Positions 9,076 to 30,212 of a stretch of 58,477 nt of DNA are shown here, one piece after another. Below the pieces are notes generated by a model that did no database searches, was not told the DNA's origin, and saw nothing but the letters and a program-made list of their open reading frames with translations. This DNA comes from a virus. How positions within the stretch are numbered: the stretch's first letter is position 1; each line of letters starts with the position of its first letter. Location of the stretch: positions 1 to 58,477 of IMG/VR virus record IMGVR_UViG_3300030451_002321, one strand, 5' to 3'. The translations under genes were made by a program, and so were the position numbers.

Positions 9076-9077
9076 GC

Positions 9078-9593
9078 TCACCACTTGCTTCGGTTTGCCC
9101 AGTATGCGGCGCTCATCTTGCCGCGCTTGATGTTCTTGGCGTGACGAGCCTTGAACGACTCGCGGCGCTTACGGTAGGACTTGGATTCACCGCGCTTCTT
9201 GGGCGAGCCGGAAACGCCCTGCTGCCCGTAGCGAATGACCTTGACCTTGTTACCCTCCTTAGCCACGACAACGTGACTCTTCTTGGGATGATTTGGCGTG
9301 CGCTTGGGCTTGTTGTACCCGCTCACACCGATGCGCTTGAGGCGTGGGTCAGGCTTCTTTGCCTTCTGAAATCCTCCACTCAATGGAGAGCCGCATGTTT
9401 GACAGACGCCTGCGCTTGCAGGAGTTTGAGCAAGGCAATATGGGTTGGAGCATTGTGCCATACCGGGTTGTATTCCAATCATCCGACGCTTCACAATCAC
9501 GTCACTCTTCTTGACCTTTTCTTCCTTCTTGGGCTTGCCCAACGCAATGACAACGACCATGCCCTTTTTGCCTTTAGGCTCATCTTTCGCCAT
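9078..9593 (-). CDS. basic zinc-ribbon protein of the Cys/Lys-rich cassette
   Basis: A 171-residue, strongly basic protein (Lys and Arg rich). A zinc ribbon in the middle is made of CSNPYC and CQTCGSPL. The C-terminal half has KEGNKVKVIRYGQQGVSG followed by a KSYRKRRESFKARHAKNIK region and YWANRSKW at the end. I recognise this C-terminal pattern (IRYG..., Arg-rich helix, xYW...W) as a small family recurring in marine viruses, usually beside DUF5872-type proteins, as here. DNA or protein binding inside the virion is plausible; no function is established. Confidence 0.6.
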   Translation of the reverse strand: MAKDEPKGKKGMVVVIALGKPKKEEKVKKSDVIVKRRMIGIQPGMAQCSNPYCLAQTPASAGVCQTCGSPLSGGFQKAKKPDPRLKRIGVSGYNKPKRTPNHPKKSHVVVAKEGNKVKVIRYGQQGVSGSPKKRGESKSYRKRRESFKARHAKNIKRGKMSAAYWANRSKW

Positions 9594-9595
9594 GG

Positions 9596-9922
9596 TTACC
9601 GCACTCCTACGTACTTCTTGAAATCACCTTTGACGATGGTAGGCTTGCCACCAACGCCCTGCCTCTTGGAACGCTTGCGCTTGGTTGCTGCACGCTTCTG
9701 ACCCTCACTCATTGAGCCACTGGTCTTGGGCGTCTTGCTGCTGACCTTAACGGACGGACGACACTTGGGGTAGCCCTTGCTGCTTGTGTTGGCCTTGGAA
9801 CGTCCGCAGGGTGGGTGCTTGCCGTCCTTGTCCTTGCGGCTCACGTCCACCCACTTTTCCTTGAACCAACGGTTCAGGTTCTTGATGACAAGAACATCGT
9901 GGCAGGTGCATCGGTCAGTCAC
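9596..9922 (-). CDS. DUF5872-like protein
   Basis: A 108-residue basic protein with the signature WFKEKWVDVSRKDKDGKHPP, then CGRS and YPKCRPS. I recognise this as the DUF5872 family, common in marine viral genomes and of unknown function. The GTG start at 9922 overlaps the previous stop (GTGA) and is preceded by GGTGAGGA; the frame stays open upstream, but the longer version would run into the neighbouring gene. The conserved Cys/His residues suggest metal binding. It belongs to a four-gene cassette of small Cys/Lys-rich proteins just after the giant gene. Confidence 0.65.
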   Translation of the reverse strand: MTDRCTCHDVLVIKNLNRWFKEKWVDVSRKDKDGKHPPCGRSKANTSSKGYPKCRPSVKVSSKTPKTSGSMSEGQKRAATKRKRSKRQGVGGKPTIVKGDFKKYVGVR

Positions 9923-10128
9923 TTCTTCCTCACCCACGCATCGCAAATGTGGTCGGCATGACAGTTGAAGTCGTACCACTCACAGTACCCTGTTTTCGGG
10001 TCATCGGTCTTAGACGAGTCCCACGCTTTGCAGGTACCGCAGTTCTTGCCGACCCTCATTTGGGCAGCAGAAGCATGACGGTAGTTTGGAGCATCTTTCT
10101 TTGCTTTGATGATGTCCCACCAAATCAC
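9919..10128 (-). CDS. small Cys-rich protein
   Basis: A 69-residue protein with NCGTCKAWD, then GYCEWYDFNC and ICDAWVRKK: five or six cysteines in a compact C-terminal domain, probably binding metal or an iron-sulfur cluster. Short phage proteins with CxxC...C...C-D-x-W are common in marine viruses, but their role is unknown. It overlaps both neighbours by four bases. Confidence 0.6.
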   Translation of the reverse strand: MIWWDIIKAKKDAPNYRHASAAQMRVGKNCGTCKAWDSSKTDDPKTGYCEWYDFNCHADHICDAWVRKK

Positions 10129-10316
10129 TTCTTTTTGCCCCCCTTCTTTTTGCGGAACTTACCACGACAGTACTGCACGGCCCAACCGTTGGCATACGCG
10201 CTTGGGTACACCTTGAACTTCCGCTTGGCCGCTGCTTTCCCTTCGGGGCACAACTTCTTTTCCAAGAAGTCAAACGCTGAATCCATGCCAAAACAATGTC
10301 CACATTCACACGTCAT
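10125..10316 (-). CDS. small Cys/Lys-rich protein (DUF5872-associated)
   Basis: A 63-residue protein beginning MTCECGHCFG, with KLCPEGKAAAKRKFKVYPSA and YANGWAVQYCRG, ending in a poly-basic tail KFRKKKGGKKK. The CP-x-GK-(x)-AAKRKFKVYPSAYAN phrase is a conserved marine-virus pattern that I associate with DUF5872-type genes. The ATG overlaps the giant gene's stop (ATGA). The basic tail suggests binding to DNA or to an acidic protein. Confidence 0.6.
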   Translation of the reverse strand: MTCECGHCFGMDSAFDFLEKKLCPEGKAAAKRKFKVYPSAYANGWAVQYCRGKFRKKKGGKKK

Positions 10317-13300
10317 GCGCCATCACCCGAGTGGTCTGATGTTCCGTAGTTCACATCTCCTTTATGCCCCTTGGGGTGGAGGGATTGACTGAATCGTGGC
10401 TTTACCGAGTAGTCGGCTCGTCGCTCAGTGTCATCGGTTTCCGCGCTTGTGCGCCTACGTGATGCGTCGCTGCGGTGATGTTGCAACGTGTTTTCGCTCA
10501 TCACGATGCGCGTTACATCATTGTCAAGTGATGTACTCATGTTGTGTGTACCGCCAAGGTTCGGACCCTTGCTTGCCGGATTACTGTCACTACTGGTGAT
10601 GTTCATGTAGTAAGCCGGGGCATAGGGCGGGTTTGTGTCAGGATTCGTCGCCCTGATGTAGTTACCGTCAGCCGCACGACCCGAGGGCATGTTGTACGCA
10701 AACAGGCCATACTTACCACCACCGGTCGCGGAGAAGTAGTTTGACCCGTACTGTGGGCTACCACTGTGCAAATTGTTGTTGGGTCGGAACATCTCAACGT
10801 GTTGGTCGTCAAGCAGGCGCACTGGGCGCAAAAGGAACGAAATTACCTTGTCCGTGAAATTGGTCTGTGCTGATGCGCTGCTGAACGTGCTTGTAGCATA
10901 TGGGTTCGCTGCCTTTCCGCTCACTGCGCCCCAACCGTAGTCGCTGACCGGGGCAAGGAAGTTGCGGGTTTCTGCCACGTACGTGCCACCAAGCGGGTTG
11001 AAGTTCGCCGTATGGCTGAGTCGTGCCACCCCGCCCACCGGTTGATTACCGAAGTTCAGTGAAGTGTAGTCGAGGTCACCAATGGTTTGCGAGCCTGCGG
11101 TCAGGCCACCAACAAGCACCACGCGCTGCCCAACACCACGGTCAGCGTGCAGACTGTGAGCCTCGGTGTTGAGTGCGATGAGGTTGTCGTCCACACCTTC
11201 GACGTTTTCTGTGTCAAGCCCAATACGCGGAGCAGAACGGGACACTGCGTCGGTGTGCTTGGTGGAGCCGGTGATGGTTTCAACACGGCTGCTGACGACC
11301 GCTTCGGGCTTGAGCAGCCCGTCTTCGTCAATTTCAAGCCGAGCACTAATGCCGCGTGGCACCTCGTCAAGCGCAAGCGTGTCGTTGCGAGCGCGAATGA
11401 ATCCGTCACCGAACACCGGCTCAGCCGTGTGGTGCGACAGGACAACACCGGTCGTGTAATCAGCCTCATTCAACGCAGTCAGCCGGTCCTCGTTGAACTG
11501 CGTGGGGTAGCGCACACCGCGACCGTTGCCCATGTCCCCAACGCGCAATGCCGTAGCAGGCATGAACAAGTCCACCAACGTGTTTGCATTGTTGTTGTTT
11601 GACGTATTCTGTCGTCCACCGAAACGTGGAATCGTCACACCGGAGGACAATGAGATGTTGCTTGACCCTGAGCCGACAATGCCCTTGAGGTTGACAAGTG
11701 GACTACCACTGTTGTACAGTCGCTCGTACGGGGTAGCATTAGTGTTGCGTCCGGGGTCATATGCGTCACCTGCATCCCACGCGGGTCTGATGCCGAATGA
11801 GCGTACAGGGAAGCGCCGTACGTCCTCACCACGGGTGTTGCCCCACCAATCCACCATGTAGTACATCACGGCCTCGTCAATGCGCTCCAAGTCCTTGCCG
11901 TTGTCGTCACCCCACCAATCACGAATGACGGTGGATTCGTTGCGCAGTGTACGCACAGGAGCGCCAAACGAGCGCGTCATACGCATACCGTCACTGTATC
12001 GCACTTGACGCTCAGCCATGTCCACTCCAAGCATACCGCTGAAGTTGGTCTGACGTTCCATGACACCGACGTAGGTTGCAGGATATGTAGCCGCACTGCT
12101 GAAGTCTGTTTTCGGCCACGTCTGCGAGTCAGCCTGCACGTACGGAGCGTATTCGGGAATCCAACCGGCAAGGGTTGAATCGCGGAAATATGCCATGCCG
12201 TACCTTGACCACTGTGGCCTGTTGTACGGTTGACGCAAACCAAAACGGTAACCGAAAGGCAACGACCTTGTTGGGTTTGATAGGGTCTTGTAATCAGTGT
12301 TGGTGACACCGCTGCTTACCGCATATGACCCGTCATCGTCTTGGTCAACCCATACCCACTTGTCGTACCCGTAGGCCTGTGAATACGTCCACGAACTTGC
12401 GGCAAAGCCGTACCCATCAAGGCGGCTAACCAACGGCCCACCGCGACTACCGCACGGCCAGTAGTTGTTGAGTGTGACTTGGGTGGTGTCGGTACCCACT
12501 GAACCCTGAACTGTGAAGTAAGCATTCAGGCTACCCGCAGCGACCACATCTCCAACACCACCCGAGTAAATTGCAGTACCAGTGGGGATTTCAGCATCAA
12601 TGGCTTGGTTGACGACAATTGCACCAGTGAACTTGGAGTCACTGCTTACTGTGTACAGTCGAGCACCAATCGCAATCACGTCACCTGACGACAACGTTGT
12701 GAGTGACGCTGGGTCAGGGTTTGTGGTAATCGTTTTCGTACTGGTGTTGATGGATTGCACCGTACGAGCAGTACCATCAGACCACCTTACAGGTAGCACT
12801 GGATTCGGTGTCTTCATCCCAAAACCAAAAGGCCCAACGCTTGCAAAGTACGGTGCGTCGTGGTAGTGGAATGTTTCAAAGTGCTCAGGCATTGAGTTGT
12901 ACGGTTTGTTGTCCACTGCCCGGTCACTTGCAGGATTGAGGAAGGTACGTGTTGAATCGGAGTAAAACGTGTACGGTCGCCCAAGGTTTGGATGCCACAT
13001 GCACAAGAATGCATCAGGAACGTGCAGACTGTTGGTGTCCCGGCTACCTTGCAACACCTGCGGTAGCATGCGCGTAATCATGCTTGACTTGGAGTCGAGG
13101 AAGACTGAGCCTGCATGGAACGTACCATACGCACGGGTAAGGCGAACCTTGGTGCCGTTGGTGATGTTACTGTGGAATGCACTCGGGGCGCTATCAAGAC
13201 CAATTGACATGGTGTCGGTGGTTGACACCTTGTTGGTGCGCCGAATACCGTTTGCATCCACGTATTCAACCAATCGGTCATAGTATGCACGCTGCGGCCA

Positions 13301-16300
13301 CATACGAGCGTCAGTAACCGTAATTGAACTTGAATTGGCGGAAACGGCAGTGGCTACAGGGTTGAGGCTGGTGAGGTCAAACACTTTGGAGTACACTTCA
13401 GGGAATTGGCTTGGGTAACCCGCAAGCGTCAGTTGTACACCAACGCTGCCTGCACCTGCACGAATGAACTCGTAGTAGTTGTCAAACCGATGGTGGTTGA
13501 GGTGTCGGAAACCAACTGATTTGGAATTGTTTGGCTCATACCGATGCACGATGCTCCACCATGGAATGTTGGTGGTAAGTCCCGGTGTAGCGTCAACAAA
13601 CATGCCGGGGTGGTACGGTAAGGTGTGACGGACAAATGCAGGTGTTTCGGTGGATTGTACACCCAACGGGTTGTACAACAACAACGGTGGAATGTTTGTG
13701 AATTGACTGCCATGGTCCGGGTCATGGTCAAGCATGACCTCGTTGATGAACACCTCGCAACCGCGCACGTCTGCGGCAGTGGCCTCAGCCAACACAAGCA
13801 CGCGAGCACCACGGGTACTGTCGGCTTCCTTGATACCCACGACCAATGCAACCTGTTGATTGGTCAGTTCCGCTACACTTCCATCGGGTAACCCCTTCCC
13901 ATCTGAGTTGTTTTGATGGTAACCAATGAGTTGTGACTTGTGCATGTTGGGTTGAATGACGATTTGGTACGAGCCAACCTCAGCGGGGTCAGGGAAGTGA
14001 TTGGACAATGTGTAGGTAGCAGCCGCCTCCAAGACGATGCTATGCCCACCCTTACTGTTGATGACCCCTGCTTGCCCTTCTGACGCCAGTACACCGTACC
14101 CATCAGCCCTTACCTTGGACTCAAACATCAGCGTGAACGCACCGCCGTGAATGTCGCTTGGTCCCGATGGTGTAGCGGACAGTGAACCGAAGACCAATTG
14201 CGGGTCGTAGTTGTTGAACTGGTCAGTTACCGAGGAAGCAATGTCTGCCCGCAGGGTCGTAAGTCCCACCTCTTCCAAGAGCGTTTGCTCAGCAAACTTG
14301 TGTGACGATGCACGAATGGCTCGATGTTTGTTGTACAGTCCTTGGTACGCAGGGTGCGCCCAGTGTCCCGGTAGCATGCCCATGGTCGGGGTGACAAAGT
14401 GGTGACCCATACGAGGCACCGCCATCGGTGTCAGTTTTGGCTTGCTCAAGATGGCGTGCGCGTTCGTTGCAGCAGAAACGCCTTGGTAGTACATCGTGTG
14501 CATTGCGTCAGGACTGTTGCCGCTGATTTCTGAGTGGTCACGCAGACGACGGGATGCAAAGAAACGGGTGCTGCCTGCGGGAATGTAGTACGACGGTACG
14601 ACCTTGAGTGAGGTGATGCTCGTCTTCACCAACTCGTCAAAGTCTGCATCCCCGACGCATCCTGTGAACGTAGCACCGCTGATGCCCGTAAAGGAGGCCA
14701 CACCACCCCGGTCGGTTGTCGGGTTGTACAGTCGCAGGAAGCGGCGGTTATCAGCAGCCTCCTCGTCACCGAACGCCGTGGAGAAGAGAGCAGCGTCAAC
14801 AGTAGCACTGACCGTGAGCGTAGTGCCTGAGTAGGACACACCGGTGAGGTCACTGTTTTGCACACCGTTGGTATGGTCGTAGTGTGTTGGGTGCTTGTGT
14901 GTATGCGTGTTACCACACTTGGTCACATGGAAGAAGAGTGTGCGGTCATGCAACTCATACGAGGTTTCCAATGGGGCATTACCCGTGGCCTCTTCCCATC
15001 CGGCAAACGTTGGGTCAGGGAACCCACCCTCACCTGCACCCTGAGAGATGTGCTCCCACTGATGGTCGGGACCGGTGGGGTAGGTGCGTGGCGCACTGGT
15101 TTCGGTGGTCCACAGGTGTTTCATGTCAGTACCAAGGTCGGGCCGAAGCATACCACCGCTGCCCATTGTTTCAGTCTGATACGCTTGGATGCGGTCAAAC
15201 CCACTGCGAACGATGATGTTGCCCGGAATGGTGTTGGGGTCAGGCAAGCGCACCTTGAGGTTCGGCTCCACGCCGCTGCCTGCAATGGCAGGTGAAAGCC
15301 CCTCAGATGCACGGTTGGACACCTTGCGGAAGCCACGAATGATGGTGCCGAAGGGTGAGCCACCCTCAACGGTGTGTACCTGTCCAGTGTCGTCCTCAAC
15401 CTCAATGGCGGCGAACTGTACCTCTTCGTTGGGGATGATGAGCACGTTACGTAGTTCTTCAGGGTGGCGAGCCGCAATTTGCGGGTGCGCCAACTCTTGA
15501 GCCTGAATGATGGGGAACATGCTACTGTTCGTGGTTTCAAACGAGAAGCGCACATTGCCGTACAGTTTCTCACCGGTCAGGTATGCAGTGCCACTGTTGA
15601 CTCGCGTGACAAAGGGCACCGAGCCAAGGCCGCGTGCGTTGAGTGCAGGTAGCGAGAGGTTGCCACCGTCCATGCGCTTCCACACCACGTGCTCGACGCT
15701 GAAGTTGCGCACTGGTGTGTTACCCAATGATTTGTACCCGTTGACGCTTGGAAGCCAGTAGGTCAGGTCGTCGTGCTTCGTGTCAAAGTCACTGCTCGAT
15801 GCAGCCGTCTTGAGGCCAAGCAACAGGTTGCGCTCAACCTCAGTCACACTGCTAAGAATGCCGGAGCCGGGGCTTTCGTCGAAGTCAAAGAACAGGTCAC
15901 CAATCTTTGCTGCTGCCGGAGTAGCGTTGAACAGGTTGTTGTCGTCTGTGATTGCACTGTGCAAAGTGTACTCAGACGTGATGAGGTCACCAGTTGGTGT
16001 GGCAGTGCCCGAAGCAATCAGGGCCTCCACGTTAGGTCCGGCGGTAGCAGGTGCATAGTACCGCTCAGCACCATGAATACGCTCGTCCCACTGAACCGTG
16101 CCTGCAAAGGTGATGGCAGTAGCGGCTGCAACACCCGCACGGGTCTTGGAGGAAACACTCAGCCAATCACCAAGTGCAGTGATACCGTCACGGTCACGCT
16201 TTGCCACAAGTGCCAGTTCGCTTTCGTACGACATCACAAGGAAACCCTTGCCAAATACACCCTGTGGGTGGTGCAGTGCATCAGGGATGGTGAAGTCAGT

Positions 16301-19300
16301 CAACGTCTGCGTGTTGACTGGTTCGCCTTGTTGAACAAATGCCCCACTGGTGTCAGCGTTACGCATGGTGTAGGTGTACGAAGTGGCGTTGATGTTGAAC
16401 GTCGTACCCGTACCACCAACGTAGTTGCGAGCATCATTGCCTTGGTAGTTTGCACCCGCGAGTGATTCAGGTGTATTTTCAAGCGCGTACACGTGTGGAA
16501 ACTGCCCATAACCGTTCATCACGGTGGACGCCGCTCCGTACGGTGAAAAGCCCAGTTTAGGATGATATGCACCCAAACCTGCTGCATAGCCCTCCGTACC
16601 GACCTTCAGTGAGTTCAGGTAGGAGTATCGCTCACCTGACCACCCAACAACACCGACTGGCCGCGTACGGTCAATGGCGTCCACAATGCCTGCAAAATGC
16701 ACTTGGGTCATGTGGGTACGCGCACTGTCGTTTTCGTTGTTGTAGCGATGCACACCCGCTTTGCTCCATACGTACACCTTTGTGGCGTTGGAATCCACAT
16801 CGGACTCCGAGGGGTGAGAACTGTCAGAATGCGTTTGTGCATCTTCCAATTTCGGGTGACCTTCGATTCGATTTGGTGCAAGGTAAAACCGTACAGTCCA
16901 TGTACCACTGTTGTTGTACACTTCTCGACTATGATACGGTGCAAACGCAGGTAGCAAAATGGAGTGAAGTGTGCGCCCGCTTTTGTCAGTACGAATCCAA
17001 CCACTTGCAGGCAACTGCTCAAGTGTTGCTTGGTTTGTACCGGATGCCTCAACGTACGTCTTTGATGCTGACCCGTCAATGTCGTAATCCGTGAACGTAA
17101 GTTCAATCCACCCATACCTGTCTTGCCGCATGGCGTTGCCCATTGAAGGTAGGTGAGTACCACCCATGGCCTTCAAAGCCCCACGACCGGGGTTTTCATT
17201 GACGGCTTGTCCAAGGACGGCTGCAAGTTCTTCACCGTTCTGACACCGCGTTGCGTCAACGATGATGAAGTCGCGGTCGAAATCGTCACCTTCTTCGGCT
17301 GACGAACCTGCAAGCATTTGCTTGGCAAGCACACCTGACACGCGGAAGGCGGTAGGGTTGACCTGATTCCAAGACTCCTTGGCCACGCGGTAGTCACTCG
17401 GTTCAAGGGGTGCGTTGAACGACATTTGGTTGTCGAGCCATGAGCCGCCGGGGTGATACCCACCGTCCATGTGGAAGGTGTAGTCGGCTTGACTGGCTGC
17501 ACCGTAACCGAGGAACGGCGCGTGCTTGTACGGGTGGGCTTTGGCGTAGTCAACAATGTTGTTACTGCTGACGGAGTTCTGCGTGTTGAAGTGTTCACCA
17601 AAGTGGTACCCGTGCTCAGGACGCTGCCACAGGCTCTTTCCACTGGACACTGCCCCTACATACGGAATACCCTCAGCGGGTGACCAGTTCATCTTCGTGA
17701 ACCAGTGATGACGGTGACGCTCGGTTTGGTATGTCCCAGTGGGTGGGCCGTAGTCGTTCCTGTCGTTGGTCAGTGTGTTTGGTAGGTACTTGTCGAACGG
17801 CACCTTGCTCCACGTATTTCCGGTCGTCACGACGTAACCGGGGTGTGGTTCAACCGCCGCATCTTCATCAGTGGTTTCGGTGAAGGGGAAGGCTTGACCG
17901 GGACCATAGATGATGTACGCCGTGTAGTTCTGCTTGGAGTTCTGCGCATCATCGTAACGAGCGATTGGATGAGCAACACGCAGGATAAGGGGTGACGGCT
18001 TTTGGTACACCATACCAACGGTGTAGCGTGACTCAACGTGGGACGGCAGGCTACTGTGTCGAGTACCGCTACCACCGTCAAGGTCAACCGCAAGCACACT
18101 GGTCTTGTTGTACACCGGTGGGTGAATGCTTGCCCGATGTTGATTGAGGAGTGCAGTGCCGGGGAAAAAAGCAAGCAGCGCGTTACAGTCAACCAAGGCA
18201 AATGATGTTGAGATTTCATTGGCGTGCTGAATACCCGCCGTACCTGTCGGCCCGCTTGAGTAGGGATGCGTATAGAAGTCGGAGTAATCGTTCTGCGTGC
18301 CGTCGTTCACGTCAAGTACGATGCCGCTGAACCCACCACCAAAGTACAACGGTACACTGTGGTCACCACTGTCCCGCGCACCACGAAAGTAGGTGACAGG
18401 TTCACTGTCCACGCTACCATGCAAACGGTAACCGTCAATCTCCCCGATAAATCGCATTACGAAGAAGTCGTCGTTGATTGTGTTTGACCCAAACTCACTT
18501 TGCCATTCAGCGGTTGCCTCTTGGTCTGTGTACGTGAACTTCGTTTCACTACCGGTTGCACTGGGCGTCTGCTTGCTGAACACCAATGCGTACTTTGTGT
18601 CGTCGTGATAAAACGGCAACCGCTCACCAAACGATGGTACGCGGTCAGGATTCGTGATGTCCTCTTGACCTGCAAGGATGAGAGCATGGCCGAGTTTGTT
18701 GGACGCCGTACGGACGTTGAACTCATTGGATGAGTAAGAGTCAATTTCCAAAATGTAGTTGTTGAGGCACGGCAGAATGTGGTCACCCGGTCGAGCCAAA
18801 AAGCGCGTACCACGGAGGTTTGACCGCCAAGTGCTGATGTCCACAGGGTCGTTGAAGGAGTCAACCAAAATGGGCGTAGGGGTGTTTGCATGGAACCCAC
18901 GACCACGGGTCCGAATCTGCACCACCGTGCGAGGAATGTAGCCAACGTCGAGTTGACGTGACGCTTCAATGTCAGCATCCGAAACCGGTGTACTGGTACT
19001 TGCGGTCAAACTCCACGATGCCGTGGCGTTTTTCTTCAACGACTCGTACTCACCAAACTCAATGTGTGCAGCCTGAATACCGTAGTCGCGGTGCAGGCTT
19101 GCACTGAACATTTCAGACAAGGGGCGTGTACCGCGTTGTGGGTTGTGGGCGCGAATAATGATGGCATCCTCAGCGACCCCCCACTCACCAAGTGTACGAC
19201 CGTCTGCTGCGTACAGGTGTCGCACGTCAACGGCAACGCCCTGCTCAACGTTCGGGTCAGTGAGGTTGATGGCTGCTACTGTTGCATACGCAAGCACCTC

Positions 19301-22300
19301 GTCGGTTACCAACGTGGTCCAATTTAGCCGAGGCGTAATCAGCAAGCCAAACTTTTTCGCGTTGGTCTTGAAGATGGTAGCGTTGTCAGTAAAGGTAGCA
19401 CCGTTGAAAAAGTGACTGACTGTGAAATTGTCACCTGCTATACCATAGAACGTATGCGTGCCTGTTACGTCGTTGGAACTGCGCGTTTCGTAGGTGAACG
19501 TGTTACCGGTTGACCCATCTGCGAATACCCCCGTTCCACTGTACGGGTCCGTGAGTTGAATGATGCCGTTGGTTAGCGGAAAGCCAAGGAAGCCAAGGAA
19601 GTCAGGATGATTGTCATAGTCCGTAGCACTCGTTGTGTACGGGGCTTCAAAGGCAATCGTCAACGAATCACCGGTGTTGTACGTGACCTTGCAATCAATG
19701 CCTGCATCAGCAGCGTACACACCGCGCCACCGGTTACCGACCCACGATGCCTCGGTCATATCAGTCGTAGGTGTGATGCGCCCAGTAGCATCACCTGTAC
19801 CAAGCATGTGATGACCAAGGGTGAAACCACCCCTCGACACGTCACTGTCGTTGATGTACACAACAATTTCATCGTCAAGTGTGGACGGCAGCACAGTCAA
19901 CTCGTTGGCAAATGCTTCGTCTATTGAACGATACACGTAGCGCACACCGTGACCGCGACCGCGATGGTCAGCAAATCGGAAGCCGTACAGGGGTGCATTT
20001 CCCACCGCATCCTCCTTTGCTGACGCCGTTGGTACATGCGAGGTATAGTCGGTGACTCCTGAGTTACCGTACTTCCTGTTGAACCGTGTGTCACCGCGTC
20101 GCCCAAGGCCAAAGTCCCCTGCATCGGGTGCGAAGCCCGGTACTCCGGCAGCAACAAGCCCACCAAAGTTGATGCGACCGATGGCGGTTGAGCCGCGACG
20201 CAATCCCTCAACAAGAGCAGTGGCAGGGGACTGAGCCTCAAACGACTCGTCAGCAACACTGTTGATGTTGGTGCCACCCATGACTGAAGACACTCGACGG
20301 GCCGTGGTGTTCTTCTTGGTGTCACTACGAGCAGCAACGTCAAGGTTGCTTGAGAAGGCGTCATCAGGCTCCTCTTGGGGCACGTACTCCCGCAGTGATG
20401 TAATTGGAGCGAAGGGGCGACCGTGCTTGTTCAACGGCAGCGGAGCAGGGTGCATGTTTTCCCCAAGCGTTTCGTCAGGCTGCGACCAAAAGTTGCGGAA
20501 GCGACCACCGTGACCGATGAGGTACTGCGGTTTGTACGTGGACTGACCCTTACTGTTGTCGAGCCATGCGCAGAAGTTACGGCTGCTTGCACCCGGAATC
20601 GTACTGTGAATGACGATGCTAAACCCTTCGTTACCGTCGAGGTCTTCCACAACGCGACCAATGTGAGCACGCAGGTACCCCATGTGACTACCTCGGTCGT
20701 GACTGTCGAACGCTTCGTCAGGGTACCACCATGGCGCAGGGTCGTAAGTTGAACCAGTAGCGGCAAAATCAGCATTAATGTGCGACGCTGAAGGGTCACG
20801 GTTCGGATTAGCAATGTCCTGTCGAACGCCAATACGTGTTAAATCAAGACGTTCGCTTTCGCCGGGGTACTGATGTGATGGGCGGCGTGCGTGGGTTCGA
20901 CCGCTTTCAGCCCCACCTTGATTGATGAGGCGCACGATTTCACGTGCAGCAGCCTCAATGTCCGTCACACCCTCTTTGACTCCAACCTCACCGAAGTCAA
21001 TGGTCATGCGACGAACAAAGTCCATCTGCGTCCAATGTGGGAGATGTTGAAGGCGGCTCTCTTCGTGGTCAGCAAGGCTCAACGTGGTGCTGCGCTTGCC
21101 CTTCAGTGCAAGGAATGCAGACACAGTACGGGTACCGTCAGGGGTGTCGAACGTTGTACTCGGGTCAGAAAGGGAATGGGTGTTGGGGTTTTGTGCAGCG
21201 CGATGGTTGCGCAATGCATTGATGAGAGGGTGGTCAGCGCCTTGGATGCGGGTCAACTTGTGGATTTCATTGCCCCAGTACGGGCTTGCAACGGCAGGTT
21301 GAACGCGAGGCAGTGTACTGTCACCCACAGTCAAACGGTCAGTCAAATTGGCCTCATGGTACAGTCCTGTATGTACGAAATGACCGTGCCCCTTTGACAT
21401 GAACAATGCGTTGTATGCTTCATTCGTAGGGTTGTTGAGTACTGTCCATGATTGCGTTGTGGTGGTGTAGGAGTTTGCTGCACTCTTCCCAATGATGTCG
21501 TGTGCGTATGCACTTTCCATGAAGTTTGACTGCTGCGTGCTGCGCAAGAATGGGTTCTCGCTCGGGAAGCCGTTGGCCACGTCAATTTGGGTGGTCAGGT
21601 AATGCGGTGCGCCGCCGTTATGTCCCATCAAGAACTTGTCCAACTTGGTCGTACCACCTTCGTAAGCGAGGTTTTGCGTGTACCCAATAGATGGGGTGGC
21701 AGCACTCGTTTGAACTTGCATGTGAAGGTCATGGAAGGCAATGAACTCACGGTCGTGACCTACATCGTAAAGCAACACGCGAGCGTGCCCATCAGTAGCA
21801 AGATACGGGTCAACATAGGCCACGGTTGGTGCTTGGGAAGCATCCAGTCCCATAGCCTTGTAGTTCTCCTCGATGGTTTTGTTGACGTGCTGAGCGTAGT
21901 TGATGGCAGTTTCCAAACAGGAGTTTCCAATCAGAAAGTTTTCCATGGGAATTGAGTCACGTGGCCGAGTTGCAAGTGTTCCCCGTCCACCGTTGAAGCC
22001 CTTCCACACCAGTTCTTCGTTGAACACACCACGACTCTTGGCGAACAAACCCTCAACTGCATGTGGGTTGTTCAGGCTCATGTTGGCCCAAACTGTGTCA
22101 CCGCTACGCAGCCCACCGGCAGCATACGGATAGACCCATGAACGATTAAGAATAGCCGATGGGTCGGTGGTTAGCACAGTTTCAGCACCAACACGGATTT
22201 TGTTGTTAATCGAAATGGCTGCTGCGTTGTTTGCTTTCAGTTCAATTTGATGATTCCCACCAGTCAGGTTGTTTGACTTGACGTAATCCACTTCACCAAG

Positions 22301-25300
22301 GTACGAAATGGTTGAGCCATCATCCACGTACACCTTGTCACCCGAACGAATGTTTAGTCCAAACGTGTTGGCATGAGCAAGGTAATAGGAATACGTTGAT
22401 GGTGCAATGTTGAGTGTAGTGGTAGTACCCGAACTGGCTGCTACGTTGAACACCCAGTACTCATTGTTCGGGGGCAAGAAGGTCATAACCTTCTTTTCCT
22501 CAGTGACAGCAGATGCGGGTGACGAGATAGAATGCAGTGCGTGACTCACACGGTCAAGTCGAATGGTAGCACCAACGAGATTCGTGGGCGATGACGTGCT
22601 GACAATAGCAAACGTGTTCTCCGTAAAGTCACTGCTGAAACGACCAAGGTAGTACGCTTCTTCACTGCTACCGTCTTCTTGGATGATTTCAGCAATGTAC
22701 AATGGGTCACCTGTTTCAAACTGAATTGCATTGCTTGAATCTCGGGTGAACGGTACATCGGGAAACAACGACCCGTCGTCAACCGTAATGGTGTACGAGT
22801 TACCGCTGATAGACGGGACTGAAACAATCGTGGCGGTGGCGTTCTTGGTCACCGTTCGTGGGGCGTGCGGGTTGCTCATTGGTCCGGCTTTAAACTCAAC
22901 TGCACTGACGTACTGCCTCATACCGTAGTCGAGGTTGCCACCTTGGGTTTGCATGTTCGCAGCATCGTAGTAGTACGGGCTACGCCCCTCGTAGTCTGAC
23001 GAGGGCGTGTGGTTGTCTGAGTCAATTGGAATCAGGGACTCCCCACGGAAACCCTGAGCGACGAAAAGGGAGGAGCCGGGAACTGCGTGAGCAAAGAAGG
23101 CCTCAGCAGCAATGCCGTGGTTGGCGTGACCCGCACCTGAGTGGGGGATGCTAAGGAAGCCATCCGATGCAGCGTTGTTAGTGTAAATGGCCCAGTGGCC
23201 ATCGGACGTGAAGCAACGGCGGAAGCGCCCAACACCCTTCATGTTTCCAAGCGAGTCGTTGGCCAAGTCACCACGTGGGAAGACCGAAGCGTTGTCCACG
23301 TGGATTTTGAAGACCGAGCCGGTGTCCTCAACACGAAGAACACGTGCCGAGGCAACGAAGTCATTGCGAACAAAACCGTATGCCGATGATGCCTGCTTGT
23401 CAGCAGGGTGAATGTCGTCTGCGCGGCGACCAACAGGGGTAGGATTCCACGTGTGGGCAGTGTACGTTGCGTCAAGATGCAACTTCATGGAGTTGTCAGG
23501 GCCGGGGAAAATGGCTTGCTCAGGATGGTCGAAGAACTGTTGAGGGAAGACAGGGATTTCGACCATGGCTCGCGTGCTTGCGAACTGCGTTCCCAATTGG
23601 TAATCGTGGCTTACCGTGTCCATGGCTTGGAAGAGGCGGTCGTTGACGGTGCTACCGTCTTGGGCCATGGACTCATCCGCAAAGTGTGGGTCGTTGAATA
23701 AGGTCAGCGAAGTTGCGACTTCAGCAGGAGATGATGTTTCAGTCATCAGTCCAACCGCGTTACACCACAGGAAGAAGTTCGCATATTCCGTGCCGTCGGC
23801 ATCGAGGAAGCGCCCAGTCCCCGTAGCACCGACGTTGGTGAAAACAAAGCCTGCACCACCTTTGCTCGCATACCCTGCGCTTGCCCCGTTCTCAAGGTAC
23901 ACACGACCGACCTTGGGAAAGGCAATCGTACCCCATGAAGCAACGTCAGGTGAGCCGTTGTTCAGTGGGGAAACGCTCAGAATGTTCTCCGTGGTCGTGG
24001 TGTCGTTCTTTGCGAACACGTGAGTGGCACGTACTGCACAGGAGCGGCGCGTAGTACCCGGTAGGCGCATCAGTGGGCTTGGGTCAAACGTAGGCTTGGT
24101 GTTCACTGCACCTTGACCGGGACCGCCGAGCGTGACCGTCACGACAGGTGCGTTTGGCTCAATCTCCTTGACCACATACGAGTCAGGTGAGCCATCACCC
24201 ACGGCGCTGACGTTACGGTTCAGTGCGCTTTCCACAACACCTGCCGCACTGACCGTGATGCGTGAGTCATTGGTTTCAGGGTCCACCTCTTCGCTCACAC
24301 TTCGCAGCCGAGCACGCGCCATCAGCAACATCACGGCCACTGATGTTTCATCTTCAACAACGGAGCGCAACTGGTGGCTACGTCGTCGGTCTGAAGGTTG
24401 AACGAACATGTACACTTCGCCACTACTGGAATAGTAGTTGTCAATGATGTCGAACATTTCGTGAGTGTGGCTACGCCCATCGGTCAAGCCGACATCAAAC
24501 ACCCCTGCACCTGACTTCTCTTCAGTCGGCGTAATGCGTTGGTAGTCGTCACCAATCGAAGTAAAAGACGAACCCACTGAGCCGTTACCTTTGTTGAACA
24601 CCAGTCGGTTGTACACCGATTCGTGTGCAAGACTGACGTGAGATGCCTTGGTAGCCTGTGGGGTGGTACGTGGGTCAGCGTTGACGTTGGAAACAGGAGT
24701 GTAGTTGTTGGGAGTACGGGAGAAGTCCAACTCCGTATCGTTGACCTGCCCACCAGTGTTGTCCCCAAGCAAAGTGTGCGAATCTAAGATGAACTCGTTG
24801 GTAGTAAGCGAATCTCCGCCAAGGACCACCATGCCACCGGGAGCGTGGAGGGTAGTACTCAAGGCCGCTGCGATGACATCGTACACGTAGGCACCGCCAC
24901 CAAGAGCAAGTGACGCAGCGGGAACCGTCTTTTCGACCATCAGCATTGGACCACTGATGCTCATGCTCGCACCAGTCAAGTCAATGGCGTTGTAGTGAAT
25001 CTCAACGAACGGTGCCATGTTGTAACTTGATTGAAGTGCAGGAACGTGGAGGATAGCAACACGGGACGTTGTTTCAGGCGTGAGGTGAAACAGGCGCGTA
25101 TCGTCGTTGATGGACGATGCCAAGTGAGGCACTGGGCCTTTGAGCATAAACGGGCGATGGTCGAAGTTGGCCCCACCGATACCAATGATTTCACGCGCCG
25201 CACTCGGCAGACCGTTGTGAACAACCGACTCAGCGGTGCTGCTGCTCACAACCTCAGTGATGACTGCATCCACGTTTTCGGAATAGAAGTCGGTCAGTGA

Positions 25301-26884
25301 GTTCACAACAAATGCACTCTTGATGGACCCCATGGCTTGCTCGTAGGTTATGGTCACAATGTCCGCTGCACCACTCACGGTTTGGTCCACGGTCATGTCA
25401 TCAGGCTTCGGGAAGCGGCGCATGTACTCATGACCGACAACGTGGGAGAAGGTATGCCGTCCACTGTGACCGACTTGGAAAAGCGCATCAAGCGTACTGG
25501 GCCATACAACGGCGAACGGGTTGTTGGTGTCGGTCGTGGTGGTTGCCATCCGAGAAGAGTACACCAAGCCGTGCTGGGCGTTGTCCGTTTCGTCAATCAC
25601 CATTTGACCCGTGCGGTCAAACACCTGAGTGCCGTAGTGCGGCGGTTGGTACGGCTTACCCGTACCGTTGTCAATCAGCAAGTCAGCAGCAACGACCACG
25701 AAGTAGTTGTCCACGTCGGTCGTACGTGCATGTAGCAGCCCGCGCAGCCCGTTCGTACCGTTCACGAAGTCCACGTGAATGCTCGTCAGCGTAATGACAC
25801 CAGTGCTACCGTTGATGCTCTTGACACGAACACGCTCGGGTGGCTTCTGATTCGGCTTCTGTGTGGACCGTGTTATGGCTCCGGGGTTGATGAGCAGGTT
25901 GTACGGCACGTGTGGGATTTCAAGCGTCGTAGGCGTAGCAGGAGCCGTGTAGTAGTCTTTGACCTTGTAATCGCCCATGCTATACGGTGACGCTTCCAAG
26001 TTGAGGGTCGGGGATGATGAGTCGTACGCCTTGCCGGTGAATCGTGCAATGAGGGCCTGCGCATCAGCAGCGGACACGGTAATGGTCGTGGAGTCGGCGC
26101 TCACGGCGTTGAACGTGTACGTACCGCTGATGACATCAATTGGTTCCTCAAAGCGGTACAGGCCTGTCGAGGCATCCGATTGCGTCGGCATGTGCGACTC
26201 AGTAACCGACTTGTGGTAGTGACCGAGGAAGTGTAGGGACTCAATGGCCCCACGGAACTCGCCACCCTTGCCACCCAAGTACACGTGCTCCGTGGAGCGG
26301 GCAATACGCATGGTTTCGTCAAACCGCTGCGATGCAACGAGGTCACCGTTGACGTACAGGAACGCTTCGCCCAATGAGAAGCCCGCAACGACGTGGTACA
26401 GGGGGCGGTGTGCAGCGTTCAAGTTCGTTGCTTCACCCTGATTTGACGTGTCGAAACGGTTGTACGAATCGTGCAGGTCGCCTTCGTGATGTGGATAAAC
26501 CACCCCATCCCATCGGTTAGTGTCCTCAAGGGCCGTGGTCAGGAAGGCCTGAAAAATGCCCTCAGACCCCTCAAGGATGAGGTCAAACGTCGCAGGCCCC
26601 GGAGTGTCCACCGTGCCCAACGACAAGGTGAACTGACCCTCACGATGGGCGATAACACCACCGCAGTCGGGTACGACCCACGCTTCGATAACGAGGTCGC
26701 CGTCCTCCTTGGCAATCAGTGGACTGTCGCCACCTGACCGTCGCTCGTTCTGCAAAATGTTCCGACTGTCTTTACCGTCAACACCGGGTACACCGGTGCC
26801 GGTGAACGTACCCTGCGGCAGAATGACCGAATCACTCACGCCGTCAAAGAAGAGGGCGTGACTTGTTCGACCGACTGCAACCAC
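10313..26884 (-). CDS. giant 5,523-residue virion protein with N-terminal LamG-like domain
   Basis: One uninterrupted frame of 16.6 kb. It starts at a GTG seven bases after GAGGTGA and ends in an ATGA overlap with the next gene. The first ~240 residues look like a concanavalin/LamG fold (ALFFDGVSDSVILP, DLVIEAWVVP, FLYVNGDLVAS, EHVYLGGKGGEFRGAIESL), often a glycan-binding module. The rest is a beta-rich patchwork high in Asn, Gly, Tyr, His and Thr. Recurrent segments of the type s-ITV-dd-A-lfP occur near residues 1197, 1366 and 4518, and SFTGISGATFTGCVGDADF near 4073. It follows the distal-tail gene, where tail-tip/central-fibre genes lie in siphovirus-like genomes. Host adhesion or a long tip fibre is inferred. 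No signal peptide, transmembrane segment, protease or peptidoglycan-hydrolase motif was recognised. Confidence 0.85.
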   Translation of the reverse strand: MVAVGRTSHALFFDGVSDSVILPQGTFTGTGVPGVDGKDSRNILQNERRSGGDSPLIAKEDGDLVIEAWVVPDCGGVIAHREGQFTLSLGTVDTPGPATFDLILEGSEGIFQAFLTTALEDTNRWDGVVYPHHEGDLHDSYNRFDTSNQGEATNLNAAHRPLYHVVAGFSLGEAFLYVNGDLVASQRFDETMRIARSTEHVYLGGKGGEFRGAIESLHFLGHYHKSVTESHMPTQSDASTGLYRFEEPIDVISGTYTFNAVSADSTTITVSAADAQALIARFTGKAYDSSSPTLNLEASPYSMGDYKVKDYYTAPATPTTLEIPHVPYNLLINPGAITRSTQKPNQKPPERVRVKSINGSTGVITLTSIHVDFVNGTNGLRGLLHARTTDVDNYFVVVAADLLIDNGTGKPYQPPHYGTQVFDRTGQMVIDETDNAQHGLVYSSRMATTTTDTNNPFAVVWPSTLDALFQVGHSGRHTFSHVVGHEYMRRFPKPDDMTVDQTVSGAADIVTITYEQAMGSIKSAFVVNSLTDFYSENVDAVITEVVSSSTAESVVHNGLPSAAREIIGIGGANFDHRPFMLKGPVPHLASSINDDTRLFHLTPETTSRVAILHVPALQSSYNMAPFVEIHYNAIDLTGASMSISGPMLMVEKTVPAASLALGGGAYVYDVIAAALSTTLHAPGGMVVLGGDSLTTNEFILDSHTLLGDNTGGQVNDTELDFSRTPNNYTPVSNVNADPRTTPQATKASHVSLAHESVYNRLVFNKGNGSVGSSFTSIGDDYQRITPTEEKSGAGVFDVGLTDGRSHTHEMFDIIDNYYSSSGEVYMFVQPSDRRRSHQLRSVVEDETSVAVMLLMARARLRSVSEEVDPETNDSRITVSAAGVVESALNRNVSAVGDGSPDSYVVKEIEPNAPVVTVTLGGPGQGAVNTKPTFDPSPLMRLPGTTRRSCAVRATHVFAKNDTTTTENILSVSPLNNGSPDVASWGTIAFPKVGRVYLENGASAGYASKGGAGFVFTNVGATGTGRFLDADGTEYANFFLWCNAVGLMTETSSPAEVATSLTLFNDPHFADESMAQDGSTVNDRLFQAMDTVSHDYQLGTQFASTRAMVEIPVFPQQFFDHPEQAIFPGPDNSMKLHLDATYTAHTWNPTPVGRRADDIHPADKQASSAYGFVRNDFVASARVLRVEDTGSVFKIHVDNASVFPRGDLANDSLGNMKGVGRFRRCFTSDGHWAIYTNNAASDGFLSIPHSGAGHANHGIAAEAFFAHAVPGSSLFVAQGFRGESLIPIDSDNHTPSSDYEGRSPYYYDAANMQTQGGNLDYGMRQYVSAVEFKAGPMSNPHAPRTVTKNATATIVSVPSISGNSYTITVDDGSLFPDVPFTRDSSNAIQFETGDPLYIAEIIQEDGSSEEAYYLGRFSSDFTENTFAIVSTSSPTNLVGATIRLDRVSHALHSISSPASAVTEEKKVMTFLPPNNEYWVFNVAASSGTTTTLNIAPSTYSYYLAHANTFGLNIRSGDKVYVDDGSTISYLGEVDYVKSNNLTGGNHQIELKANNAAAISINNKIRVGAETVLTTDPSAILNRSWVYPYAAGGLRSGDTVWANMSLNNPHAVEGLFAKSRGVFNEELVWKGFNGGRGTLATRPRDSIPMENFLIGNSCLETAINYAQHVNKTIEENYKAMGLDASQAPTVAYVDPYLATDGHARVLLYDVGHDREFIAFHDLHMQVQTSAATPSIGYTQNLAYEGGTTKLDKFLMGHNGGAPHYLTTQIDVANGFPSENPFLRSTQQSNFMESAYAHDIIGKSAANSYTTTTQSWTVLNNPTNEAYNALFMSKGHGHFVHTGLYHEANLTDRLTVGDSTLPRVQPAVASPYWGNEIHKLTRIQGADHPLINALRNHRAAQNPNTHSLSDPSTTFDTPDGTRTVSAFLALKGKRSTTLSLADHEESRLQHLPHWTQMDFVRRMTIDFGEVGVKEGVTDIEAAAREIVRLINQGGAESGRTHARRPSHQYPGESERLDLTRIGVRQDIANPNRDPSASHINADFAATGSTYDPAPWWYPDEAFDSHDRGSHMGYLRAHIGRVVEDLDGNEGFSIVIHSTIPGASSRNFCAWLDNSKGQSTYKPQYLIGHGGRFRNFWSQPDETLGENMHPAPLPLNKHGRPFAPITSLREYVPQEEPDDAFSSNLDVAARSDTKKNTTARRVSSVMGGTNINSVADESFEAQSPATALVEGLRRGSTAIGRINFGGLVAAGVPGFAPDAGDFGLGRRGDTRFNRKYGNSGVTDYTSHVPTASAKEDAVGNAPLYGFRFADHRGRGHGVRYVYRSIDEAFANELTVLPSTLDDEIVVYINDSDVSRGGFTLGHHMLGTGDATGRITPTTDMTEASWVGNRWRGVYAADAGIDCKVTYNTGDSLTIAFEAPYTTSATDYDNHPDFLGFLGFPLTNGIIQLTDPYSGTGVFADGSTGNTFTYETRSSNDVTGTHTFYGIAGDNFTVSHFFNGATFTDNATIFKTNAKKFGLLITPRLNWTTLVTDEVLAYATVAAINLTDPNVEQGVAVDVRHLYAADGRTLGEWGVAEDAIIIRAHNPQRGTRPLSEMFSASLHRDYGIQAAHIEFGEYESLKKNATASWSLTASTSTPVSDADIEASRQLDVGYIPRTVVQIRTRGRGFHANTPTPILVDSFNDPVDISTWRSNLRGTRFLARPGDHILPCLNNYILEIDSYSSNEFNVRTASNKLGHALILAGQEDITNPDRVPSFGERLPFYHDDTKYALVFSKQTPSATGSETKFTYTDQEATAEWQSEFGSNTINDDFFVMRFIGEIDGYRLHGSVDSEPVTYFRGARDSGDHSVPLYFGGGFSGIVLDVNDGTQNDYSDFYTHPYSSGPTGTAGIQHANEISTSFALVDCNALLAFFPGTALLNQHRASIHPPVYNKTSVLAVDLDGGSGTRHSSLPSHVESRYTVGMVYQKPSPLILRVAHPIARYDDAQNSKQNYTAYIIYGPGQAFPFTETTDEDAAVEPHPGYVVTTGNTWSKVPFDKYLPNTLTNDRNDYGPPTGTYQTERHRHHWFTKMNWSPAEGIPYVGAVSSGKSLWQRPEHGYHFGEHFNTQNSVSSNNIVDYAKAHPYKHAPFLGYGAASQADYTFHMDGGYHPGGSWLDNQMSFNAPLEPSDYRVAKESWNQVNPTAFRVSGVLAKQMLAGSSAEEGDDFDRDFIIVDATRCQNGEELAAVLGQAVNENPGRGALKAMGGTHLPSMGNAMRQDRYGWIELTFTDYDIDGSASKTYVEASGTNQATLEQLPASGWIRTDKSGRTLHSILLPAFAPYHSREVYNNSGTWTVRFYLAPNRIEGHPKLEDAQTHSDSSHPSESDVDSNATKVYVWSKAGVHRYNNENDSARTHMTQVHFAGIVDAIDRTRPVGVVGWSGERYSYLNSLKVGTEGYAAGLGAYHPKLGFSPYGAASTVMNGYGQFPHVYALENTPESLAGANYQGNDARNYVGGTGTTFNINATSYTYTMRNADTSGAFVQQGEPVNTQTLTDFTIPDALHHPQGVFGKGFLVMSYESELALVAKRDRDGITALGDWLSVSSKTRAGVAAATAITFAGTVQWDERIHGAERYYAPATAGPNVEALIASGTATPTGDLITSEYTLHSAITDDNNLFNATPAAAKIGDLFFDFDESPGSGILSSVTEVERNLLLGLKTAASSSDFDTKHDDLTYWLPSVNGYKSLGNTPVRNFSVEHVVWKRMDGGNLSLPALNARGLGSVPFVTRVNSGTAYLTGEKLYGNVRFSFETTNSSMFPIIQAQELAHPQIAARHPEELRNVLIIPNEEVQFAAIEVEDDTGQVHTVEGGSPFGTIIRGFRKVSNRASEGLSPAIAGSGVEPNLKVRLPDPNTIPGNIIVRSGFDRIQAYQTETMGSGGMLRPDLGTDMKHLWTTETSAPRTYPTGPDHQWEHISQGAGEGGFPDPTFAGWEEATGNAPLETSYELHDRTLFFHVTKCGNTHTHKHPTHYDHTNGVQNSDLTGVSYSGTTLTVSATVDAALFSTAFGDEEAADNRRFLRLYNPTTDRGGVASFTGISGATFTGCVGDADFDELVKTSITSLKVVPSYYIPAGSTRFFASRRLRDHSEISGNSPDAMHTMYYQGVSAATNAHAILSKPKLTPMAVPRMGHHFVTPTMGMLPGHWAHPAYQGLYNKHRAIRASSHKFAEQTLLEEVGLTTLRADIASSVTDQFNNYDPQLVFGSLSATPSGPSDIHGGAFTLMFESKVRADGYGVLASEGQAGVINSKGGHSIVLEAAATYTLSNHFPDPAEVGSYQIVIQPNMHKSQLIGYHQNNSDGKGLPDGSVAELTNQQVALVVGIKEADSTRGARVLVLAEATAADVRGCEVFINEVMLDHDPDHGSQFTNIPPLLLYNPLGVQSTETPAFVRHTLPYHPGMFVDATPGLTTNIPWWSIVHRYEPNNSKSVGFRHLNHHRFDNYYEFIRAGAGSVGVQLTLAGYPSQFPEVYSKVFDLTSLNPVATAVSANSSSITVTDARMWPQRAYYDRLVEYVDANGIRRTNKVSTTDTMSIGLDSAPSAFHSNITNGTKVRLTRAYGTFHAGSVFLDSKSSMITRMLPQVLQGSRDTNSLHVPDAFLCMWHPNLGRPYTFYSDSTRTFLNPASDRAVDNKPYNSMPEHFETFHYHDAPYFASVGPFGFGMKTPNPVLPVRWSDGTARTVQSINTSTKTITTNPDPASLTTLSSGDVIAIGARLYTVSSDSKFTGAIVVNQAIDAEIPTGTAIYSGGVGDVVAAGSLNAYFTVQGSVGTDTTQVTLNNYWPCGSRGGPLVSRLDGYGFAASSWTYSQAYGYDKWVWVDQDDDGSYAVSSGVTNTDYKTLSNPTRSLPFGYRFGLRQPYNRPQWSRYGMAYFRDSTLAGWIPEYAPYVQADSQTWPKTDFSSAATYPATYVGVMERQTNFSGMLGVDMAERQVRYSDGMRMTRSFGAPVRTLRNESTVIRDWWGDDNGKDLERIDEAVMYYMVDWWGNTRGEDVRRFPVRSFGIRPAWDAGDAYDPGRNTNATPYERLYNSGSPLVNLKGIVGSGSSNISLSSGVTIPRFGGRQNTSNNNNANTLVDLFMPATALRVGDMGNGRGVRYPTQFNEDRLTALNEADYTTGVVLSHHTAEPVFGDGFIRARNDTLALDEVPRGISARLEIDEDGLLKPEAVVSSRVETITGSTKHTDAVSRSAPRIGLDTENVEGVDDNLIALNTEAHSLHADRGVGQRVVLVGGLTAGSQTIGDLDYTSLNFGNQPVGGVARLSHTANFNPLGGTYVAETRNFLAPVSDYGWGAVSGKAANPYATSTFSSASAQTNFTDKVISFLLRPVRLLDDQHVEMFRPNNNLHSGSPQYGSNYFSATGGGKYGLFAYNMPSGRAADGNYIRATNPDTNPPYAPAYYMNITSSDSNPASKGPNLGGTHNMSTSLDNDVTRIVMSENTLQHHRSDASRRRTSAETDDTERRADYSVKPRFSQSLHPKGHKGDVNYGTSDHSGDGA

Positions 26885-26893
26885 GATTTCACC

Positions 26894-28021
26894 TCACAGA
26901 ATCACGTCAGCCGGTAGGAAAATGATGGTGAACTGGTAAATCGGCTCGCCACCCAAACGGACAAACGTGGCCTTGTCAATACCGCCCTTAATTCCTGTGT
27001 AGGAGTTCTTCGTGTCTTCAAACCGAGCACCTGCAAGCACGGCATTACTCACGTCTTTTCGGTCAGGGTTGCGCAAATAGAATGAGCCAGTGGTCATGAA
27101 AAAGTTCCGAGCCGAGTACTTTTCACCGCCACTTGCGTTAATCATTGAATCAAATGGTACTTGAACACCAATGATGTAATCTCCACCACCGCGTAGTTTG
27201 CCAGTTCCGTCATCGTTGTCCCTACGGAAACGTCCTCGCCCACCGTCTTGTGAGTTGTTCAACACACCCCATAGCCGCTGCACTTTGTCGCCTGCACTAC
27301 GACCCGATTGCCCACCACCTGCGACGTGGTTGTTGAACTTCGTGACAATGTGAAACTGTGCATCACCGGGTTGTCCACGTTTGTACTTCGGGTACGCAGT
27401 GTCATTTCCACTTGCAGTGCGTGTAATGGTGAGCATTGCATTTGCTTCACCTGTGTAGGGCGAAGTTCCTCTCACCGCAGTAAAGTCGCTTGAGTAATTG
27501 GCGTCAATAGCCTGCTTAACGTACAGTGCAATGTTGGCTGCGCTAACCGCATTTGTTTGGTCGTGAATCTGCACCCATGGTACACCGCCCTGTGTGCTAT
27601 TTGTGGTGGAAGTGTGGGAAACAAAACGAATCTCCTTGGAACTACTAAGATGCAAACGCTGAGCCTGACTGAAATCATTTGTAGGTGTGATGAATGTTGC
27701 AGTTCGCACAATGTCTCGTTTGTCTTCATCGGTCATTTTACGACCACCGCGCCTTCGTGACTCCATGAAATACGAAAAGTCAATTGATGCGGTAGCCTTA
27801 GATTCCGTTGATTGAAACACCGCATCATCGTCGGTGATGATACCCTCAAGGGTAATGACGGCGCGGCTAAGGTTGGAGTCAGTAGCAATACGGTGACTGC
27901 CGGAAAACACCTTGGGTCGAGCGTTGAACTTGCGGTCAACGTCCAACGAAAGCGTCGTAACGTTCAACTCGATGATGCCACCGTTGCGTTGAACCAAACG
28001 GATAGGGGTGCCGTTTGCCAT
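26894..28021 (-). CDS. putative distal tail protein
   Basis: A 375-residue beta-rich protein located directly after the tape measure gene, the usual place of the distal tail (Dit) protein linking tube to tip. The N-terminus, PIRLVQRNGGIIELNV, and the C-terminus, GGEPIYQFTIIFLPADVIL, form plausible edge strands. An internal part, residues about 140-220, includes IHDQTNAVSAANIALYVKQ and reads like an inserted domain. The next gene downstream is the giant protein, so this is probably its anchoring ring. The function is inferred from gene order. The start is preceded by GAGGTCGG. Confidence 0.5.
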   Translation of the reverse strand: MANGTPIRLVQRNGGIIELNVTTLSLDVDRKFNARPKVFSGSHRIATDSNLSRAVITLEGIITDDDAVFQSTESKATASIDFSYFMESRRRGGRKMTDEDKRDIVRTATFITPTNDFSQAQRLHLSSSKEIRFVSHTSTTNSTQGGVPWVQIHDQTNAVSAANIALYVKQAIDANYSSDFTAVRGTSPYTGEANAMLTITRTASGNDTAYPKYKRGQPGDAQFHIVTKFNNHVAGGGQSGRSAGDKVQRLWGVLNNSQDGGRGRFRRDNDDGTGKLRGGGDYIIGVQVPFDSMINASGGEKYSARNFFMTTGSFYLRNPDRKDVSNAVLAGARFEDTKNSYTGIKGGIDKATFVRLGGEPIYQFTIIFLPADVIL

Positions 28022-30202: not shown

Positions 30203-30212
30203 TTTCATCACC

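Follow-up and report, generated by a model that had tools for sequence, protein, structure and literature searches.

A single 5,523-residue protein as a probable structural component of the distal tail of a magrovirus-like archaeal virus

What would a tailed virus make from one uninterrupted frame of 5,523 codons placed among its tail genes? The question is raised by IMG/VR virus record IMGVR_UViG_3300030451_002321, all 58,477 nucleotides of which were analyzed (hereafter, the window). A gene at positions 10313..26884 on the minus strand, opening with GTG, encodes a protein of 600 kDa, referred to here as the giant protein. An earlier note on this DNA had described it as one continuous gene for a tail-region protein embedded in coupled late genes. 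Its coordinates, strand and frame proved to be exact, and the gene order, which includes homologues of known tail genes, bears out the placement. We consider it fairly probable that the product is structural and belongs to the distal tail, in the tip or baseplate, of an archaeal siphovirus resembling magroviruses.

The frame itself is well supported. The chance of meeting 5,523 codons without a stop at the composition of the window is approximately 1e-97. Close relatives carry an ATG at the codon equivalent to the GTG of the window, preceded by TGAGGTGA in overlap with the stop codon of the gene upstream of the giant gene; the start is, for this reason, taken to be correct. All of the 39 related IMG/VR records match the C-terminal 1,000 residues of the giant protein and 37 match the N-terminal 1,000 residues, each of these 37 holding one frame with no internal stop. 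Complete frames among the related records range from 5,194 to 6,332 residues. The earlier note had also named frame-breaking indels and chimeric assembly as findings that would speak against so long a gene, and no such pattern is common to the relatives: a frame break was found in three of about 178 fetched loci (L005, L065 and L355), one in each and all at different places, so that the breaks look like sporadic errors. Against L109, the closest complete relative, 5,482 of the 5,523 codons could be aligned, and the ratio of nonsynonymous to synonymous substitution rates (dN/dS) lies between 0.07 and 0.20 in every block of 400 codons, which is indicative of purifying selection along the whole length of the gene. 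Antisense open frames of about 500 residues, present within the giant gene of several relatives (L034, L038, L079, L091, L097 and others), are probably a by-product of codon bias.

The assignment to the distal tail follows in the first place from gene order. The module, encoded on the minus strand, runs from the tail tube through the tail assembly chaperone, the tape measure, a 375-residue protein and the giant protein to a hub candidate and a fibre-like protein, and four of its tail genes are homologous to those of cultured Druskaviridae. The tail tube protein (703 residues; 30213..32324) matches HCTV-5 gp127, annotated as tail tube, with an E-value of 1e-11, and HVTV-1 gp128 at 95.6%. The chaperone (29356..29724) corresponds to HVTV-1 gp129 with an E-value of 4e-4 and in the same gene order. 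The tape measure protein, identified as such and given as 352 residues in the earlier note (28021..29079), matches phrog_1535 (E 1.6e-19) and is a homologue of HVTV-1 gp131 (hhalign, 94.9%). The hub candidate (466 residues; 7052..8452) was recognized as a homologue of HVTV-1 gp133 using profiles built from relatives. The hub candidate begins no more than 60 nucleotides from the stop of the giant gene in 41 of 77 relatives, often with a 4-nucleotide overlap, and the fibre-like gene follows in 72 of the 77. Furthermore, all tail-tube contigs that were checked and had enough downstream DNA carry the giant frame approximately 3.3 kb downstream. Both arrangements argue for a tail-tip protein.

The N-terminus, for which a LamG-like domain had been proposed, is predicted to be a LamG/ConA-like domain spanning residues ~61–232 (26188..26704, minus strand). 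The Pfam family Laminin_G_3 (PF13385) aligns at residues 160–219 with an E-value of 0.002 and 18.7 bits, below the curated cut-off of 27.6 bits; the giant protein of relative L025 reaches 25.0 bits, and the family is matched in 11 of 13 giant-protein relatives, with a best E-value of 1.6e-6. The AlphaFold2 model of residues ~60–230 displays a LamG/ConA jelly roll, with predicted local distance difference test (pLDDT) values mostly of 75–85, and a Foldseek search with the N-terminal model returned the LG domains of neurexin, laminin and agrin with E-values of about 1e-5. Clostridial neurotoxin binding domains, also returned, have only the common jelly-roll fold in common with it and were discarded. 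Among the matches of the giant protein in BFVD are phage proteins with LamG and baseplate wedge initiators of cyanophages, and the latter, together with the LamG domain, are consistent with a position at the tail tip. The C-terminal model, in which two folded islands are seen, has its best Foldseek match in a phage portal-tail complex (E 3e-4), a weak similarity that is not assigned to either island and points in the same direction.

The remainder of the chain had been portrayed as a long beta-rich patchwork. Beta-rich folded islands are present, but the patchwork is not borne out: the protein is colinear across 21 sequences, with a mean identity of ~26–68% per block of 150 residues (mostly above 40%), variable stretches alternating with conserved blocks and the C-terminus among the better conserved parts. 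Profile self-comparison revealed one confident internal repeat, a small beta module at residues 1362–1446 (22547..22801, minus strand) that recurs at residues 4517–4585 (13130..13336, minus strand; hhalign probability 84%), where it constitutes one of the two C-terminal islands. A tandem-repeat adhesin is ruled out by the presence of this single repeat. Differences in length are mostly due to insertions of ~65 to 155 residues at differing sites. A mobile module of about 75 residues, with the motif VDGxDATT (VDGxDATTxFxVGDxLxxxxG), is found in the giant protein of 9 of the 21 sequences, giant proteins with the module including those of L119, L123, L124 and L126; it occurs as well in the tail tube of the window (residues 50–130) and in the hub homologue that other relatives (L082/L083) encode, and so in different lineages, a distribution expected of surface-exposed parts of the virion. 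This module has no match in Pfam or in the phage collection. One relative has a module similar to a subunit of the baseplate wedge (phrog_438, E 4.4e-5), which favours the tip. Judged from these alignments, the giant protein consists of a colinear core, almost free of repeats, into which small mobile beta modules are inserted at sites that differ.

The least conserved part of the protein, a site of module insertion, encompasses residues ~4,581–4,980 (11945..13144, minus strand), as indicated by identity to relative L031. Here the identity to a relative that is elsewhere mostly 94–100% identical drops to 87–90%, and the region is a candidate for exposure on the surface. The overlapping block of codons 4,401–4,800 has a higher synonymous rate (dS) against L109, which suggests recombination.

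Several results weigh against a distal-tail structural protein. Apart from the LamG-like domain, the core has no profile match in Pfam, PHROGs or the PDB, with both halves searched, and hhalign comparison of the giant protein with the tail-tip proteins of Druskaviridae gave nothing above 8% probability. The AlphaFold2 models, covering two fifths of the chain at the N- and C-termini, are poor (mean pLDDT of 50 and 37), and no hub or baseplate fold was seen in these low-confidence models.

The tail to which such a tip would belong is not exceptional. From the size of the tape measure, the earlier note had deduced a very short tail. In the cultured archaeal virus HFTV1, a tape measure of 341 residues corresponds to a tail of 560 Å with 11 rings (PMC12494034), and by this yardstick the 352-residue protein predicts a tail of about 57 nm; tape-measure frames in the relatives comprise 284–449 residues. 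The tail of the window virus is therefore estimated to be short but ordinary, and the unusual part would be the tip. Should the giant protein assemble as a trimer, which is assumed here on the model of HFTV1, its contribution would be approximately 1.8 MDa.

Among the alternatives, the one that survives best, although it is improbable, is that the virus relies on the giant protein as its main receptor-binding fibre or adhesin. The LamG domain, the gain and loss of modules and the sheer size of a beta-rich chain in the tail region would all suit such a function. Its pattern of evolution would not, as it resembles that of structural genes and is unlike that of a receptor-binding protein: the giant protein is 96% identical to that of L031 over the shared part, whereas the 725-residue fibre-like protein drops to 58–68% in several C-terminal blocks and the 211-residue protein encoded between the giant gene and the hub candidate is only 27% identical to its L031 counterpart. 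In adhesins it is often the C-terminal end that varies; here that end is comparatively well conserved. By these comparisons the giant protein is not an obvious determinant of host range. Of the outsized tip or fibre that had been envisaged, the oversized distal tail part is retained and the fibre is not, as the variable fibre-like protein is the product of a separate gene (4534..6711, minus strand). In that protein the N-terminal 400 residues are conserved, the C-terminal part is variable and has an indel, and the motif GSMSAADKTKLDGIA is present. A C1q-like C-terminus, suspected by eye, found no support in a PDB search, and matches of the fibre profile to antibody heavy chains in the PDB were judged to be chance matches of composition.

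Marginally less likely still is a polyprotein, that is, a long product cut after assembly into tail proteins that are encoded separately elsewhere. The gene fills a stretch that in Druskaviridae and HFTV1 is taken up by several smaller genes of the tail tip, and the alternation of variable stretches with conserved blocks would fit a chain of cleavable units. However, in none of the relatives is the gene divided at a conserved position, a possibility that had been raised with the original description; none of its segments matches a separate tail protein of HVTV-1, HCTV-1 or HCTV-5; and the hub candidate and the fibre-like protein already have genes of their own.

We regard an internal or ejected virion protein as very unlikely. 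The proposal draws on size, since virion proteins known to be this large are of that kind: the tape measure of P23-45 has 5,002 residues (PMC10770324) and the virion RNA polymerase of N4 about 3,500 (PMC12633501). The former is a tape measure fused to an RNA polymerase and the latter an ejected polymerase; by sequence, the giant protein is neither. Profile searches gave no polymerase or other enzyme family and no match to the tape-measure profiles of PHROGs. Nor is the giant protein taken to be a tape measure, as one is encoded separately and no clear hydrophobic segment or marked helix bias is seen in the giant chain; the LamG domain and surface modules suggest exposure. The statement that no close example was known is to be amended accordingly: virion proteins equally large do exist, as P23-45 demonstrates, yet no tail-tip protein of this size was found. 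Finally, a chimeric assembly or a run of several genes read through has next to no probability, as the comparative data, namely the 37 single frames, the low dN/dS throughout and the conserved start context, refute it in spite of the three isolated frame breaks.

For the distal-tail structural protein, the following mode of action is proposed. The giant protein would be made beside the tail connector, hub and fibre proteins, and its colinear core is probably what gives the tail of ~57 nm an oversized tip. Through the LamG domain and the small beta modules acquired and shed at the surface, the protein probably contacts glycans of the archaeal envelope in a general way, and the separate, variable fibre-like protein probably sets the host range. 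We infer the presence of the giant protein in the virion, its position at the tip, its oligomeric state and its binding of glycans. A more far-reaching scenario, advanced only tentatively, is that marine archaeal viruses have swapped a multi-gene tail tip for a single-chain baseplate platform of ~600 kDa, the conserved core of which would be a scaffold capturing small mobile surface modules also found in the tail tube and the hub, with a separate fibre setting the host range.

The module contains further genes, all on the minus strand. A protein with a SAP domain (E 8e-13; 29678..30211) is encoded between the tail tube and chaperone genes, and a possible second tail assembly chaperone frame, proposed from its position, lies at 29084..29359 and is conserved in 22 relatives. 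The 375-residue protein (26894..28021), conserved in 23 relatives and without a match in the PDB or Druskaviridae, is by position a candidate distal tail connector. A small tail-tip protein of 114 residues (6708..7052) is conserved in 73 relatives. A variable cassette of four small genes (99, 127, 171 and 211 residues; 8449..10309), present in close relatives only, separates the giant gene from the hub candidate and, given that these two adjoin in 41 of the 77 relatives, is a local insertion. In the cassette, DUF5872 is found at 9596..9979, and the C-terminus of the protein encoded at 9078..9593 matches phrog_7595 and also, with a weak score, a 'minor head protein and DNA pilot' family. Another very long gene (39875..45595, minus strand; 1,906 residues) is situated between the prohead protease and portal genes; its product has a weak match to ATP-dependent DNA ligase at residues 1500–1585 (E 0.004), and a 1,313-residue 'zeta toxin' protein is encoded upstream of the prohead protease in HVTV-1.

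The window also encodes an HK97-type major capsid protein (36% identical to HVTV-1 gp120), a portal, a terminase and a prohead protease. A group II, thermosome-type chaperonin (2523..4025, plus strand) scores E 1e-130 with thermosome models versus 1e-30 with GroEL, and its nearest cellular match, at 43%, comes from a metagenome-assembled genome of Poseidoniaceae. Family B DNA polymerase turned up in 11 of the 15 records tested and there lies on the other strand from the giant gene; it was not found in the 58-kb window, which is probably an incomplete record. Magroviruses are viruses of marine Poseidoniales (PMC10768690, PMC12999244), and the thermosome-type chaperonin of the window agrees with clade 1 of Nishimura et al. 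(PMC5332604). Gene content, on which the assignment is based, fits a magrovirus-like archaeal tailed virus, and the host probably belongs to some of the most abundant archaea of the ocean. A pattern scan of GTDB genomes gave no relative, and hence no direct link to a host.

The giant gene was, as anticipated, found in other marine archaeal virus contigs. Two IMG/VR scans with C-terminal pieces of the protein gave 127 and 423 coding matches, and a capsid-based scan followed by a profile search located the gene in ten marine records, whereas HVTV-1, HCTV-1 and a 104-kb relative of both gave no match. Several marine records without a match stop before the C-terminal part of the gene, as judged from locus coordinates, which were checked for part of these records. 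The giant gene thus looks like a hallmark of a marine lineage. A tblastn search of 50,697 phage records found nothing, and the family appears undescribed in the libraries searched; a deposited viral homologue, UniProt A0A1B1IU10 (BFVD fragment A0A1B1IU10_1), 44% identical over ~1,200 alignment columns at the N-terminus, carries no name. We are therefore dealing with an enormous and strongly conserved gene that lies outside described protein families and is absent from cultured salt-lake relatives. If a single-chain tip of 600 kDa is universal in the lineage, it would be a large and unmistakable target for virion proteomics and for cryo-electron microscopy of seawater particles. It also prompts the question how a viral protein of this size is folded, possibly with the encoded thermosome. 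As a by-product, a new small mobile beta module has emerged from the tail tube, giant and hub proteins.

Comparison with known systems places these features in context. Magrovirales (Apasviridae and Aoguangviridae) are marine archaeal tailed viruses of 90–110 kb with PolB, a chaperonin and an HK97-type capsid. The accessible part of the magrovirus literature makes no mention of a giant tail gene; Laminin_G_3 has been counted among the putative auxiliary metabolic genes of four magrovirus groups, with no other listing (PMC10160649), and this may be the LamG domain of the giant protein. HFTV1, with its baseplate hub gp44 and tail fibre gp42, offers a model of how such a tip might work (PMC12494034), although gp44 has 954 residues as opposed to 5,523. 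The tape measure, tail tube, 375-residue, hub-candidate and fibre families of the window show no confident profile match to HFTV1 tail proteins, and the giant protein matched nothing among PDB profiles, gp44 not having been aligned directly. The Druskaviridae (HVTV-1, HCTV-1 and HCTV-5) are closer: their major capsid, tail tube, tape measure, chaperone and hub candidate are homologous to those of the window and occur in the same order, and the annotation of HCTV-5 gp136, a protein of the tail module, includes a laminin G domain. In HVTV-1 just one gene, gp132 (151 residues), separates the tape measure from gp133, whereas the window has the 375-residue protein, the giant gene and the four small genes there. 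The cultured Druskaviridae, which lack the giant gene, thus provide a clean before-and-after comparison.
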